NCBI GenBank assembly: GCA_029263455.1 | Contig: JAJCXM010000022.1 | Coordinates: 248,001 to 312,000, forward strand | DNA: 64,000 nt | Origin: Holophagae bacterium | GTDB lineage: Bacteria; Acidobacteriota; Holophagae; Acanthopleuribacterales; Acanthopleuribacteraceae | Direction of reading: 5' to 3' | Shown: positions 46,605-52,873 of the stretch, piece after piece | Layout of the letters: each line of letters opens with the position of its first letter | Position numbering within the stretch: position 1 is the first letter of the stretch | Position numbers and translations under genes: made by a program | Notes under the pieces: model-generated | Database searches by the model: none | The model's input: the letters and a program-made list of their open reading frames with translations, nothing else | Told to the model about the DNA's origin: nothing

Positions 46605-47543
46605 CTAAGGTTGAGCAAAGATGATGGCACGCCAAGGTGCAGGGTGCGATTCGACAGTAAGTTGGTTATTCTCGGGATTAAGTTTTTCTTGAAAACTTGG
46701 TTGTGGATGCCATTCTGTCGACCGCTGCTCTTCGGCGAGGTGACGTGCGTTAGAAATCACCTCCAGGCTCTTGAATTTAGCCTTTTTTAGTAAGTTGATG
46801 AGGGCTGCCAGAGTGGGCAAGAACCAAATATTCTTCATACCTGCATAGCGATCTTCAGGCAGTAAACACATGGAACCATCGCCAGGAATGACAATTGTTT
46901 CGAGCACGAGTAAGCCTCCCGGTTTGATGCACTTTTTTATCGCTCTTAATAGGTCGATTGGACTGTGATGGTGATAGAGGATGCCCATACACAAGACCGT
47001 ATCAAAACAAGCCGGCAGAGCGGCCGTCTCTTGCCAACCCCAGGGTCGAAAACCAATGCTTTGTACTTGGGCGCGCGATTGTATCAATTCAAATTGCATT
47101 TGAAACTTTGGGATGGGGTCAATACCTAAGACGGTTTCCGCACCCTGGTCGTGGAGGCGAAACAAGGTGTAGCCATTATTGCAACCAATGTCCAAAACAT
47201 CTTGACCTTGAAGGGAGGGCAAATGCTGAGCAAATCGGTTCCACTTCCAATCCGAACGCCATTCGGCGTCTATCTCTACCCCATTCAAGCGAAAAGGTCC
47301 CTTTTTCCACGAACCTAATCCTTGAGCAGCTAATCTTATCTCTTTTTGAGCCGCGTCACAGAGTGTGTTGCCAACGGCGATGACACCATTATCGATGTGA
47401 AAGGAGGGGTTTTGACAAGGAGGTAGTGCGGCCAAGACTTGTCTTTGTGCTTGCCACCTCTGATCGTTGAGATGCCTTAGACCACGGCGATTGGCTTCAA
47501 TTAATACGTCAACGCGATCCTCTCTTAAGAATGAAAATGTCAT
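46605..47543 (-). CDS. cmoB: tRNA U34 carboxymethyltransferase
   Basis: The 312-residue protein matches CmoB in length and order: an N-terminal helical region with WKKGPFRLNGVEIDAEWRSDWKWNR, the SAM motif VLDIGCNNGYTLFRL, FRPWGWQETAAL and FDTVLCMGILYHHHSPIDLL. CmoB uses carboxy-S-adenosylmethionine from CmoA to convert 5-hydroxyuridine at tRNA position 34 into 5-carboxymethoxyuridine. Its ATG overlaps the cmoA stop by 4 bases. The pair is best known from Gammaproteobacteria and some other Proteobacteria. Confidence 0.93.
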   Translation of the reverse strand: MTFSFLREDRVDVLIEANRRGLRHLNDQRWQAQRQVLAALPPCQNPSFHIDNGVIAVGNTLCDAAQKEIRLAAQGLGSWKKGPFRLNGVEIDAEWRSDWKWNRFAQHLPSLQGQDVLDIGCNNGYTLFRLHDQGAETVLGIDPIPKFQMQFELIQSRAQVQSIGFRPWGWQETAALPACFDTVLCMGILYHHHSPIDLLRAIKKCIKPGGLLVLETIVIPGDGSMCLLPEDRYAGMKNIWFLPTLAALINLLKKAKFKSLEVISNARHLAEEQRSTEWHPQPSFQEKLNPENNQLTVESHPAPWRAIIFAQP

Positions 47544-48274
47544 GCGGTGTAGTCTTTAATAGCAATGAATGAAGCAAAGTTGTGCCACTTAAAGAAGATT
47601 TCTGCTTCGCCAAATCCTGCCTGGGCTAGTAATTCGAGTTGTTCATCGACTTTGTAGGGCACAAGCACATTTTCGAGCTGTTCCCGTTTACGACTGATTT
47701 CGAGATCTGAATAACCTTGGCGCCTCTTAAAGGTCCAATACATTTCGATAAAGAGCCTGCTTATGGCGGTGCTTTGCTCTAATACTTTCTCAGAAACAAT
47801 CAAAATGCCACCGGGCCTAAGTGATTGGTAGATCCGATTGACGACAGATTGTCGGTACATGGGACGGACAAACTGTAACGTGTAATTCATGATGACGACG
47901 GACGGATCTTCCAGTTCAACCTGACGCAGGTCCGTGTTTTGCCAAACTATTCGACTTGCCAGGGGGTGATCCGAAAACCGCTGCCGCGCTCGATCTAACA
48001 TGGGTTCAGAGTCGTCGACCCCGACAAATCGATGTATGTCAACTTGGCTGTCGTCAGCGATCTTGGCGAGCGTTGCGCCCGTCGAGCAGCCCAGGTCAAT
48101 CAGCGCTGATTGGGGTTGGTAGAAGGCCTCAACAAAATCGACGATCATACGATGAACTTCGTCGTAGAACGGGATCGATCTTGACAGCATATCGTCGAAT
48201 ACAGCTGCCACGTCTTCGTTAAACTCGAAGTCAGTTAAAGCCCGTACCGGTTTTCGAAATAATTCGTCGCGCAT
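47540..48274 (-). CDS. cmoA: Carboxy-S-adenosyl-L-methionine synthase
   Basis: The 244-residue methyltransferase-fold protein makes carboxy-SAM from SAM and prephenate. It shows FEFNEDVAAVFDDMLSRSIPFYDEVH at the N-terminus, the motif LIDLGCSTGATLAKI, VVIMNYTLQFV and SLRPGGILIVSEKV, all standard for CmoA. It precedes cmoB with a 4-base overlap and follows the TSUP permease gene after 3 bases, so all three share a transcript. Confidence 0.94.
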   Translation of the reverse strand: MRDELFRKPVRALTDFEFNEDVAAVFDDMLSRSIPFYDEVHRMIVDFVEAFYQPQSALIDLGCSTGATLAKIADDSQVDIHRFVGVDDSEPMLDRARQRFSDHPLASRIVWQNTDLRQVELEDPSVVIMNYTLQFVRPMYRQSVVNRIYQSLRPGGILIVSEKVLEQSTAISRLFIEMYWTFKRRQGYSDLEISRKREQLENVLVPYKVDEQLELLAQAGFGEAEIFFKWHNFASFIAIKDYTA

Positions 48275-49135: not shown

Positions 49136-50194
49136 ATGCGATCGAGCATTGAAAATAAAGTTAACAATGGAATGCGATTAAATGGCGACGATGCTCGATT
49201 TCTGTACGAAGATGCGAGTCTAGAAGATCTATCACGATGGGCGACGCAGGCCCGAGCCCGTTTTCATGACCCCAAGACGGCGAGCTACTTAGTCATGCGC
49301 ATCATCAATTACACCAACGTGTGTGTTGCGCTTTGCGATTACTGCGCGTTTTATCGATTACCGAAGTCACCTGAAGGGTATGTGCTTTCGTTCGAGTCGA
49401 TGTGCGAAAAAATCGACGAATTATTGGAGCTTGGCGGCGACCTAGTTGGCTTCAATGGGGGCTTTAACCCCAAGCTCAATATCGACTGGTATGTGGATCT
49501 CTATGGGCGAATTCGCCGTAAATACGGAGACCGCATCGAGTTTTACGCGTTAACCATCGCTGAACTTATGTATATCGCCAAGATAAGTCGCATCAGTTGC
49601 GAGGAAGCCAGTTCACGTTTGAAAGCTGCAGGCGTGCGCTGGATAACGGGAGGTGGTTCAGAGATTCTGACCAACGGGTTTCGAGAACGCCATTCACCTA
49701 TCAAAGGTACTGCGGACGCATACATTGACGCACAAAGAGCCGTGATCCGGAGCGGGTTAAACACCACTGCGACCATGGTCATTGGATTCGACGAATCGAT
49801 CGATGAACGCGTCGAACACCTACAGCGTGTGCGCGATTTGCAGGATGAAACGAACGGCATCTTTAGTTTATTGAGTTGGACATACAAACCTGAAAACACG
49901 GAATTAGGCGGCGTGGAACTGAATCACGTGGATTATTGGCGTCACTTGGCTTGTGCCCGCCTCTTTTTGGATAACATCAAGCACATTCGAACCTCCGTAT
50001 TAACACAGAATGAGCATGCATTACGAGGTCTGCATTTTGGAGCAAACGATTTTGATGTGCCCTTGGAGGACGAGGTCACACAAATGGCAGGCGCTACCAT
50101 TAACCCCAACATAGACGCTGTTCTTGATGCATGTCGTGCTGAAGGTTTTGCGCCCCAATATCGGCAATTTGCGCAGCCCGCGTTGGACATTTAA
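49136..50194 (+). CDS. mqnC: Cyclic dehypoxanthinyl futalosine synthase (radical SAM)
   Basis: The 352-residue radical SAM enzyme cyclises dehypoxanthine futalosine in the futalosine route to menaquinone. The cluster cysteines form CX3CX2C (C63, C67, C70; CVALCDYC), followed by FYRLPKSPEGYVLS and LVGFNGGFNPKLNIDWY, ITGGGSEILTNGFRERHSP and ATINPNIDAV, all matching MqnC rather than MqnE. The ATG follows GGGAGG by 5 bases; the frame extends upstream over the promoter region of the divergent permease. A second radical SAM gene starts one base after its stop. Other mqn genes are not in the window. Confidence 0.92.
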   Translation: MRSSIENKVNNGMRLNGDDARFLYEDASLEDLSRWATQARARFHDPKTASYLVMRIINYTNVCVALCDYCAFYRLPKSPEGYVLSFESMCEKIDELLELGGDLVGFNGGFNPKLNIDWYVDLYGRIRRKYGDRIEFYALTIAELMYIAKISRISCEEASSRLKAAGVRWITGGGSEILTNGFRERHSPIKGTADAYIDAQRAVIRSGLNTTATMVIGFDESIDERVEHLQRVRDLQDETNGIFSLLSWTYKPENTELGGVELNHVDYWRHLACARLFLDNIKHIRTSVLTQNEHALRGLHFGANDFDVPLEDEVTQMAGATINPNIDAVLDACRAEGFAPQYRQFAQPALDI

Positions 50195-50195
50195 G

Positions 50196-51488
50196 ATGAC
50201 TTTTGCGTCTTTACAACACCACGTCGAAGACTTTATGCAGATCCCGCCCGAGGCGGTCATCAAGCAGGACATTTTACGCTGCGGGCTACGCTTCTCCGAA
50301 GCGGCAATGACCATCGCCGCAGGGTACAAACCCAAAGACTACTTTATTTTTTCGTTTGACCTTATTGAGATTAAAGATATGCAGCAACGTGAGCATTTAA
50401 GGGTTCCGGAAGAGATCTGCATTTCTGACGGGCCATTTGAGCTGGCGAATACCATTATTTCCGTGCGCATCAATCCAGATTCGCCTTACGTTGTTGATGT
50501 TATCGAGGGTCGAATCACATTGCACTGTGACGGTAATTGGGTTGGAGATGTGACTTACCATCCCATCCCCTCGTTCTATCATGAACCGCTTTCGTCCGGG
50601 AAAGCTATGGGCGAAGTAGCGCCCGTTTTGGAATGGGGTTACCTGATCTATCTAACGGTCTACCGTATGTGCCAATACTTCAACAAAGAAGAACAATGTC
50701 AGTTCTGCGATATCAATCGAAACTTCATTCAACAGCGAAAGGCTGGAAAGCCATATACGGGTATTAAGACCGTCCCGGAGATTATTGAAGCGCTGGCCCA
50801 CATCGACAGAATGGATCAACGGGCACAAGCCTATACATTAACCGGCGGCTCAATCATTACAGACCTGCAAGGCGTAGACGAAGTCGACTTTTATGTGCAG
50901 TTCATCGAGGCGATTGAAGAGAGGTTCCCGCGACGTTGGATCAGCAAAGCGGTTGTGCAGGCCTTTGAACCCAAAGATTGCCAGCGTCTTAAGGATGCCG
51001 GTCTGCAAATCTACCATCCAAATTACGAGGTTTGGGGAGAAAAGCTCTTTAATGCTATTTGTCCCGGAAAAGCCCGTGTGATTGGTTTCGAGACTTGGAT
51101 AAATCGAGTGGCCGAGTCAGCTTCTGTTTTTGGGGCCAGCCACGTAATCCCAAACTTTGTCGGCGGCGTTGAGCTCAATTCTGTTTGCGGATACAAGGAT
51201 GTAGACCAGGCCGTTGCGCATACAACTGAGGGCCTCGATTGGTTCATGTCGAAAGGGATCATGCCTCGATTCACTACGTGGTGCCCCGAACCGCTGGCAG
51301 CCTTAGGCCATCAAGCCGCGCCTCCTTTGGCCTATTTCTGCAAGTTATTGATAGCTTGGAGAGAGCGTTTCTTACATTATGGGCTCAAAACACCGCCGGG
51401 CTACGGCGCTCCTGGCGTCGGAAATGCCGTATTTTCGGTTAGTGCTTTTATGGATGTTTTGCCAGCATTATCAATGACGGAGTCGTGA
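50196..51488 (+). CDS. Radical SAM protein with CX8CX2C cluster motif, coupled to mqnC
   Basis: The 430-residue protein has a distinct N-terminal region of about 150 residues, then a radical SAM-like barrel. The presumed cluster cysteines are C159, C168 and C171, spaced CX8CX2C instead of the usual CX3CX2C. A TLTGGSII stretch after it resembles the SAM-contacting GGE motif. Later conserved-looking segments include VIGFETWINRVAESASVFGASHVIPNFVGGVE and MPRFTTWCPEP. It starts one base after the mqnC stop and its own stop overlaps the next ATG (TGATG). I do not recognise the exact family; a role near menaquinone synthesis is inference from position. Confidence 0.8.
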   Translation: MTFASLQHHVEDFMQIPPEAVIKQDILRCGLRFSEAAMTIAAGYKPKDYFIFSFDLIEIKDMQQREHLRVPEEICISDGPFELANTIISVRINPDSPYVVDVIEGRITLHCDGNWVGDVTYHPIPSFYHEPLSSGKAMGEVAPVLEWGYLIYLTVYRMCQYFNKEEQCQFCDINRNFIQQRKAGKPYTGIKTVPEIIEALAHIDRMDQRAQAYTLTGGSIITDLQGVDEVDFYVQFIEAIEERFPRRWISKAVVQAFEPKDCQRLKDAGLQIYHPNYEVWGEKLFNAICPGKARVIGFETWINRVAESASVFGASHVIPNFVGGVELNSVCGYKDVDQAVAHTTEGLDWFMSKGIMPRFTTWCPEPLAALGHQAAPPLAYFCKLLIAWRERFLHYGLKTPPGYGAPGVGNAVFSVSAFMDVLPALSMTES

Positions 51489-52873
51489 TGTTTAGCCTTG
51501 TCTTTTGTTTGATGTGTGCGACACCTGGGCTAGCACCTAAGACTTGCTTAGCTGTTTGGACGCCCAGAAATGAGTCCCATTTGGTGATGGCGTCGGCTAA
51601 AGGTATTTATGGGGTTCGCTGGTGGGCTGAAGCGAATGGCGAGTTGTTGGTGTTGGCGGATTGCGAGGCGCTCAATGGTCTTGGTCAGTTGGGTTTTTTA
51701 CATCCCATCGATTTAGAACCTCGCTTGGATCGGCTTTATGTTGTGTCGAATGATCTTAACGATGTTACAGGCTCATATCTGGTGTTGATGAAGGGTGCCA
51801 GAAGTTCTGTTGTTTACTCGGAACAGCCAGTGGCTACGAAACACCCTGACAGTCACGGGTTGCTGGCGAATGTGGTGGATAACGTTGTTTTGGAAAAGGC
51901 CCCATTACCACCATTCCCGCTGACGCATTGTTCCGGTATCCAGGCGCTTGTCGATCAAATTGATGGGCCAAGATGGTTCAATGATGTTCAATCCTTGGCG
52001 TCCTTTAATCGCCATACTCTTCAGAGCGGAAATATTGCGGCTCGCGACTGGCTAGTCACGCAATTTCAGGCAATTGGTGGTTTGACGGTTACAACGGAAG
52101 CGTTTGTTGTTAGCGGCACAACCACTTACAACGTTATTGCTCAACTGGACGGGACTACCTCGCCGGATGATTGGTATATTGTGGGCGCTCACTACGACTC
52201 AACCTCTGAAAATACACCTGCTTCCGCGCCGGGAGCTGAAGATAACGGAAGTGGGACGGCGGCTCTTTTAGAACTTGCCCGCTTGCTTACGACCACGACA
52301 CCAGAGTCGACGATTTTCTTTATCGCCTATTCTGGAGAAGAGCAAGGGTTGCATGGAAGTACAGCTCATGCTTCTGGCCTGGTGTCGTCAGGTAATGACA
52401 GCAAGGTAAAGGTCGCCCTGATCATGGACATGATTGGCTATTCGAGTGATGCTGACTTGGATTGTCTTTTAGAAACGAATGCCAGTAACCAGTTCATCAT
52501 TGATGACCTGAGTGCCGCTGCGGCTAGTTATACTTCACTGAGGATCGTCACGACCTTGTTCCCTTTTGGATCCGACCATGTCCCTTACCTTAACCGCAAT
52601 ATGCCCGCTTTGTTGACCATCGAAAACGATTGGGATGAATATCCCGACTACCATCGGACCACCGATTTGCCGGCCAACATAAATTTGAATATGGGTCGCG
52701 AAGTGATTCGCATGAACGCGGCTGCCCTCATCGAATGGACAAGTGCTGCTACCTGCGTCGATGTTCAGGAGTTGCTTTCATTGTGGCATAGCCCCATATC
52801 GGCACCTACAGATACCAATGGCAACGGCATAGTGGATGTGGTGGATCTTTTACAACATGGAATTGCCAACTGA
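51488..52873 (+). CDS. Secreted M28-family aminopeptidase with dockerin-like C-terminus
   Basis: The 461-residue protein starts with a signal peptide (MFSLVFCLMCATPGLA), a propeptide-like region and then an M28 zinc peptidase. All ligands are visible: GAHYDS near 234, EDNGSGTAAL near 250, SGEEQGLHG near 283 with the catalytic glutamate, MDMIGY near 313 and DYHRTTD near 388. The last 35 residues contain DTNGNGIVDVVDLL, a calcium-loop pattern like a dockerin half or EF-hand. The ATG overlaps the stop of the radical SAM gene, yet the function looks unrelated. Confidence 0.9.
   Translation: MFSLVFCLMCATPGLAPKTCLAVWTPRNESHLVMASAKGIYGVRWWAEANGELLVLADCEALNGLGQLGFLHPIDLEPRLDRLYVVSNDLNDVTGSYLVLMKGARSSVVYSEQPVATKHPDSHGLLANVVDNVVLEKAPLPPFPLTHCSGIQALVDQIDGPRWFNDVQSLASFNRHTLQSGNIAARDWLVTQFQAIGGLTVTTEAFVVSGTTTYNVIAQLDGTTSPDDWYIVGAHYDSTSENTPASAPGAEDNGSGTAALLELARLLTTTTPESTIFFIAYSGEEQGLHGSTAHASGLVSSGNDSKVKVALIMDMIGYSSDADLDCLLETNASNQFIIDDLSAAAASYTSLRIVTTLFPFGSDHVPYLNRNMPALLTIENDWDEYPDYHRTTDLPANINLNMGREVIRMNAAALIEWTSAATCVDVQELLSLWHSPISAPTDTNGNGIVDVVDLLQHGIAN

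Follow-up and report, generated by a model that had tools for sequence, protein, structure and literature searches.

What reaction is carried out by a radical-SAM enzyme whose gene begins a single base after mqnC, in a genome where mqnE appears to be missing? The question arises in a 64,000-nucleotide stretch of DNA (here called the window) from a member of the Acanthopleuribacteraceae, within the Acidobacteriota. In the futalosine pathway to menaquinone (vitamin K2) MqnA converts chorismate to 3-[(1-carboxyvinyl)oxy]benzoate, MqnE adds the 5'-deoxyadenosyl radical of SAM to that product to form aminofutalosine, and MqnD yields 1,4-dihydroxy-6-naphthoate. After the MqnE step the base is taken off by a nucleosidase, either MqnB or MTAN, and MqnC then cyclises (PMC8210684). 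The parts of the window that bear on the question are these:

49136..50194, + strand: mqnC-like ORF (predicted cyclic dehypoxanthinyl futalosine synthase), divergent, immediately 5' of the radical-SAM gene
50196..51488, + strand: gene for a variant radical-SAM protein (NF045502) of 430 aa, the proposed alternative aminofutalosine synthase in place of MqnE
50196..50630, + strand: N-terminal alpha/beta region of ~145 residues ahead of the barrel, without a clear match among solved structures
50670..50708, + strand: CX8CX2C cluster loop, with C159 at 50670-50672, C168 at 50697-50699 and C171 at 50706-50708
50841..50852, + strand: TGGS (residues 216-219), where strand 212-217 ends

The mqnC-like ORF stops with a TAA at 50192-50194, and the radical-SAM gene runs from an ATG at 50196, one base on, to a TGA at 51486-51488; the coordinates and the one-base spacing agree with a preliminary description of this DNA. 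That description also reported a CX8CX2C arrangement of C159, C168 and C171 where CX3CX2C might be expected, and this too was borne out: in an alignment of 56 sequences (the protein and 55 homologues, 51-78% identical to it) none of the three cysteines varies (56/56) and the first gap is exactly eight residues in every case, so that the motif is not a product of chance.

The protein matches the NCBIfam model NF045502 ('variant_rSAM') at 181.7 bits against a cut-off of 125, over nearly its full length from residue 22, as did all 54 homologues scanned; the family is one without an assigned reaction. A Pfam scan of the 430-residue protein gave no matching model, Radical_SAM included, a PDB sequence search found no relative, a PADLOC run gave no match, and neither TIGR03700 (MqnE) nor TIGR03699 (MqnC) or TIGR03551 (CofH) matched it at E ≤ 1. 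We place the protein outside the CofH/MqnC/MqnE family, and it may work like MqnE without being a family member. The MSMEG_0568 family (TIGR04043) is a distant relative within the same broad family: the match is weak (40 bits against a cut-off of 303.7), too low for membership, and its plasmid members are 22-25% identical to the window protein. A second NF045502 protein is encoded in the host's own genome (L001, 1456-2745; G000:C14:163705-164733); it is 23.6% identical to the window protein, and its first two cysteines lie further apart, in what looks like CX10CX2C.

An AlphaFold2 model built from 54 sequences (mean pLDDT 93.5) takes the form of the radical-SAM partial TIM barrel, with the three cysteines in the cluster loop, the features for which the preliminary description proposed to look. 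In the model the cysteine loop lies between the first barrel strand (150-156) and the first helix (173-182), which is the site of the [4Fe-4S] cluster in radical-SAM enzymes, and TGGS, with which the second strand closes, corresponds to their SAM-binding position of the 'GGE' type. With the cysteine loop and the partial TIM barrel both present in the model, the protein belongs to the radical-SAM superfamily, cluster binding and SAM cleavage being predicted. Foldseek recovered HydE and lipoyl synthase at E 1e-7, and VIA Z scores of 15-17 were obtained to many radical-SAM enzymes. Two MqnE structures (6xig, 6xi9; rmsd 3.7-4.4 over 241-245 aligned residues, about 14% identity structurally) are among the closest solved structures, their VIA Z of 16.9 being shared by lipoyl synthase and HydE. 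A profile comparison that seemed specific for MqnE (E 7.7e-6) was dropped when the control gave a better value for CofH and about an equal one for canonical MqnC. Since the structural comparison ends in a tie and the profile comparison prefers CofH, neither proves function. What the window protein has in common with MqnE is the radical-SAM fold, together with the reaction and pathway position proposed here; it differs from MqnE in its CX8CX2C motif (CX3CX2C in MqnE), in its N-terminal region and in resembling CofH more strongly in the profile comparison. With MqnC and CofH it likewise has a radical-SAM core in common, and MqnC is also its pathway neighbour. The N-terminal region on its own gave nothing convincing among solved structures (best Foldseek E 0.79, best VIA Z 2.3); its description as a novel stretch of 150 residues therefore holds as regards solved structures but not as regards uniqueness, the NF045502 match already starting at residue 22.

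Is there a gap in the host's pathway that such an enzyme might fill? Searched in full with the MqnC model (E ≤ 0.001), the genome yielded the mqnC-like protein of the window alone, with no second relative of MqnC, MqnE or CofH, in an assembly rated 95% complete; because MqnE, CofH and MqnC cross-match strongly, a search that finds one protein only indicates that the host is without MqnE. Two PF02621 proteins are encoded in this genome: one (G000:C12) groups with MqnD and its gene adjoins mqnB, and the other (G000:C32) is taken as MqnA. The host MqnB scores 152.6 bits on TIGR03664 (cut-off 124.7). Judged by sequence, the pathway is complete as far as 1,4-dihydroxy-6-naphthoate save for one gap, exactly between MqnA and MqnB, its genes mqnA, mqnD and mqnC lying scattered in the genome. 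As the product of MqnE carries the adenosyl group of SAM, any enzyme that takes its place ahead of MqnB can be expected to belong to the radical-SAM enzymes. The mqnC-like protein of the window reaches 322 bits on TIGR03699, under the cut-off of 428, and in our tree sits within the MqnC group on a long branch (1.73 changes per column).

In a sample of 237 Acidobacteriota genomes, each at least 85% complete, the gene occurs in 22 (20 full length at 654-745 bits, and two N-terminal fragments) and is otherwise sharply absent; the match in one further genome (G155), at 127 bits, is no more than a distant paralogue. No carrier (0/22) has a match at the level of MqnE: none of their E values with the MqnE model is better than 1e-107, which is the level of an MqnC or CofH cross-match, where full MqnE matches lie below 1e-115 and reach 527 bits. 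Among the 157 non-carriers with the futalosine pathway (a count that leaves aside 11 genomes of one family, f46, without a PF02621 gene), 152 have a full MqnE, four a partial one and one (G071) neither. The four partial genes came from a re-search; at least two are clearly at contig ends, and the piece in G074 is a weak match of 53 residues. The association of the gene with the lack of MqnE is strong (Fisher p = 2.7e-27, with related genomes counted as independent), and the 11 families with the gene show zero overlap with the more than 40 that have MqnE. G071, rated 100% complete, encodes MqnC and two PF02621 proteins; MqnE and the radical-SAM family are both missing from it, possibly through a third solution to the MqnE step or an assembly gap. 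The 11 genomes of f46 (G130, G147 and others), which have no PF02621 gene, encode a protein that matches the models of both MqnE and MqnC at E ~1e-85 to 1e-98 and is probably CofH.

Across phyla we assembled 50 genomes with close homologues of the protein, drawn from groups that include the Calditrichota, Cloacimonadota, Planctomycetota, Leptospiraceae and other Spirochaetota, Thermoleophilia, Streptomyces and Catenulispora. An MqnC-level match is present in 47 of the 50 and PF02621 in 49, mostly in two copies, and MqnE exceeds its cut-off in five only (three Catenulispora and two Streptomyces), being absent in every non-actinobacterial carrier examined. Second MqnC/E-like proteins of carriers were considered as divergent forms of MqnE and rejected: those put on a maximum-likelihood tree proved to be MqnC or CofH, two that were placed with CofH scoring 462 and 485 bits to that model.

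Streptomyces offers a comparison within one genus, and a complication. Of 393 genomes, 252 (about 64%) have the radical-SAM gene and 380 have MqnE over its cut-off; the gene is found in all 13 of those without MqnE (hypergeometric p = 0.0028), where MqnE scores are at cross-match level only (G049, G328, G330, G355, G368, G385, G416, G442, G462, G546, G570, G571 and G610). One genome without the radical-SAM gene, G286, has an MqnE match at E 2.9e-124 and was counted as MqnE-positive, and in G610 and G442 the absence of MqnE could be due to assembly gaps. Seven of the 13 were put on a tree and fall in about four places, suggesting that MqnE was lost more than once. S. sulphureus is an example of a Streptomyces without MqnE. 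About 239 Streptomyces and three Catenulispora hold both genes, so that the radical-SAM gene is not always a replacement, and the Streptomyces with both are the main point that simple replacement leaves unexplained. Copies of the gene are also borne on Streptomyces plasmids, in neighbourhoods with neither mqn genes nor a clear gene cluster, and a Catenulispora sequence is placed beside Chlorobiota on the radical-SAM tree; plasmid copies and tree positions together indicate horizontal transfer. Redundancy following acquisition is a reasonable, if conjectural, account of the Streptomyces with both genes.

Gene neighbourhoods also bear on the question. In Acanthopleuribacteria (L006-L010, L065) the radical-SAM gene is directly downstream of mqnC, and in Thermoleophilia and other deep Actinobacteria it is directly upstream, with mqnA also close. 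Elsewhere it is found without mqnC: followed by mqnA (L030), adjoining a gene for an MqnB-like nucleosidase (L017, L049), or in the order mqnD, mqnB-like, radical-SAM gene, aroA in a Chlorobiota MAG (L024). Clustering of 83 loci showed no conserved partner save MqnC, and for most of the 80 closest homologues a span of 8 kb contains no mqn gene; dispersal is common among mqn genes themselves. Taken literally, homologues lying mostly away from mqn genes are the outcome that the preliminary description named as refuting its idea, but the genome-wide pattern of presence and absence shows the link, and the distances do not refute it. In several MqnE-positive genomes of the phylum (G103, G081 and G258, for example) mqnE and mqnC are a few kilobases apart, so a radical-SAM gene beside mqnC holds an mqnE-like place. 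The clade of long-branch MqnC proteins, common to Acanthopleuribacteria and Thermoleophilia, is found in the loci examined only beside the radical-SAM gene.

The gene thus occurs with mqnA, mqnC and mqnD, and with mqnB as looked at in the host genome and a few neighbourhoods, where mqnE is missing, the exceptions being actinobacteria with both genes and G071 with neither. Four genomes with the gene (G017, G027, G031, G143) lack an MqnC match, and incomplete assemblies may account for this. On this genome context we propose, with a probability of roughly 0.8, that the protein is a non-orthologous aminofutalosine synthase standing in for MqnE. C159, C168 and C171 would hold the [4Fe-4S] cluster, and SAM would be cleaved to the 5'-deoxyadenosyl radical. 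Addition of this radical to the MqnA product at its enolpyruvyl group, followed by rearrangement and decarboxylation, would give 6-amino-6-deoxyfutalosine. MqnB would then strip the base, the adjacent MqnC cyclise, and MqnD finish 1,4-dihydroxy-6-naphthoate. Substrate, product and chemistry we infer from the same genome pattern and context. A role in the menaquinone pathway, as put forward in the preliminary description, is well supported by the MqnE-loss pattern and the mqn neighbours, but its more specific suggestion of an unassigned step, or of a modification of menaquinone or an intermediate, is probably mistaken, as the pattern points to the MqnE step.

Could the enzyme act elsewhere in the pathway, in a late ring step or in menaquinone tailoring, with MqnE missing on other grounds, for instance because yet another enzyme has gone unseen? 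Its neighbours are mqn genes in general (mqnA, mqnB, mqnC and mqnD), and in many Streptomyces it is found together with MqnE, as such a role would allow. Yet its distribution mirrors the absence of MqnE specifically, MqnC, MqnA/MqnD and (in the host) MqnB being kept, and the gap is one that calls for radical-SAM adenosylation, so that we consider a role elsewhere distinctly unlikely. That the neighbouring MqnC performs both the MqnE and the MqnC reactions, assisted or regulated by the radical-SAM protein, is scarcely credible: it is true that this MqnC is a long-branch protein and the sole relative in its genome, but other MqnE-less carriers have an ordinary MqnC over the cut-off (for example 493.9 bits in G022 and 491.3 in G021), encoded away from the radical-SAM gene.

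The features that set the protein apart might instead signal different chemistry. An adenosylated or otherwise modified intermediate of another kind, and hence a new pathway branch (in Streptomyces, a distinct naphthoquinone or specialised pathway running alongside MqnE), would suit the unusual spacing of the cysteines, the N-terminal region, the length of the branch that bears the paired MqnC clade, and the Streptomyces with MqnE or with plasmid copies; a host MqnB over its curated cut-off and the ordinary MqnC of many carriers speak for production of the usual intermediates, and such a branch is very improbable. Also unlikely is a second, independently evolved adenosylation of the MqnA product, in which the CX8CX2C cluster would support a chemistry or intermediate unlike that of MqnE, the long-branch MqnC would be adapted to it, and the gene would serve a separate purpose beside MqnE in Streptomyces.

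Searches of the open-access literature found no description of an alternative to MqnE; subscription papers and preprints were outside this search, and prior publication is possible. The alternatives predicted by Ravcheev and Thiele, 2016 (PMC4746308) concern different steps (mqnZ in place of mqnD), and the proteins traced by Zhi et al., 2014 (PMC3914697) were limited to MqnA, MqnC and MqnD. If the protein does stand in for MqnE, it would supply the missing step of the futalosine pathway in Acanthopleuribacteria and other Acidobacteriota, and in sampled members of the Leptospiraceae, Cloacimonadota, Planctomycetota, Calditrichota and Thermoleophilia, whose genomes have mqnA, mqnC and mqnD and look incomplete because mqnE is absent. 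Annotation or inhibitor work based on MqnE would overlook many organisms, and two unrelated enzymes would be available for comparing the control of radical adenosylation. An uncharacterised radical-SAM family would gain a concrete and directly testable reaction, and, with the gene in so many of the sampled Streptomyces, cultured strains are at hand.

Two further observations concern the surroundings of the gene in the window. On the opposite strand, at 46605-48274, cmoB and cmoA (tRNA U34 carboxymethyl-SAM pathway) lie side by side; they diverge from mqnC, from which a TauE/SafE transporter gene separates them. Downstream, a gene for a secreted-looking M28 peptidase (51485-52873) overlaps the end of the radical-SAM gene, and its product has a C-terminal dockerin-like repeat, DTNGNGIVDVVDLL.
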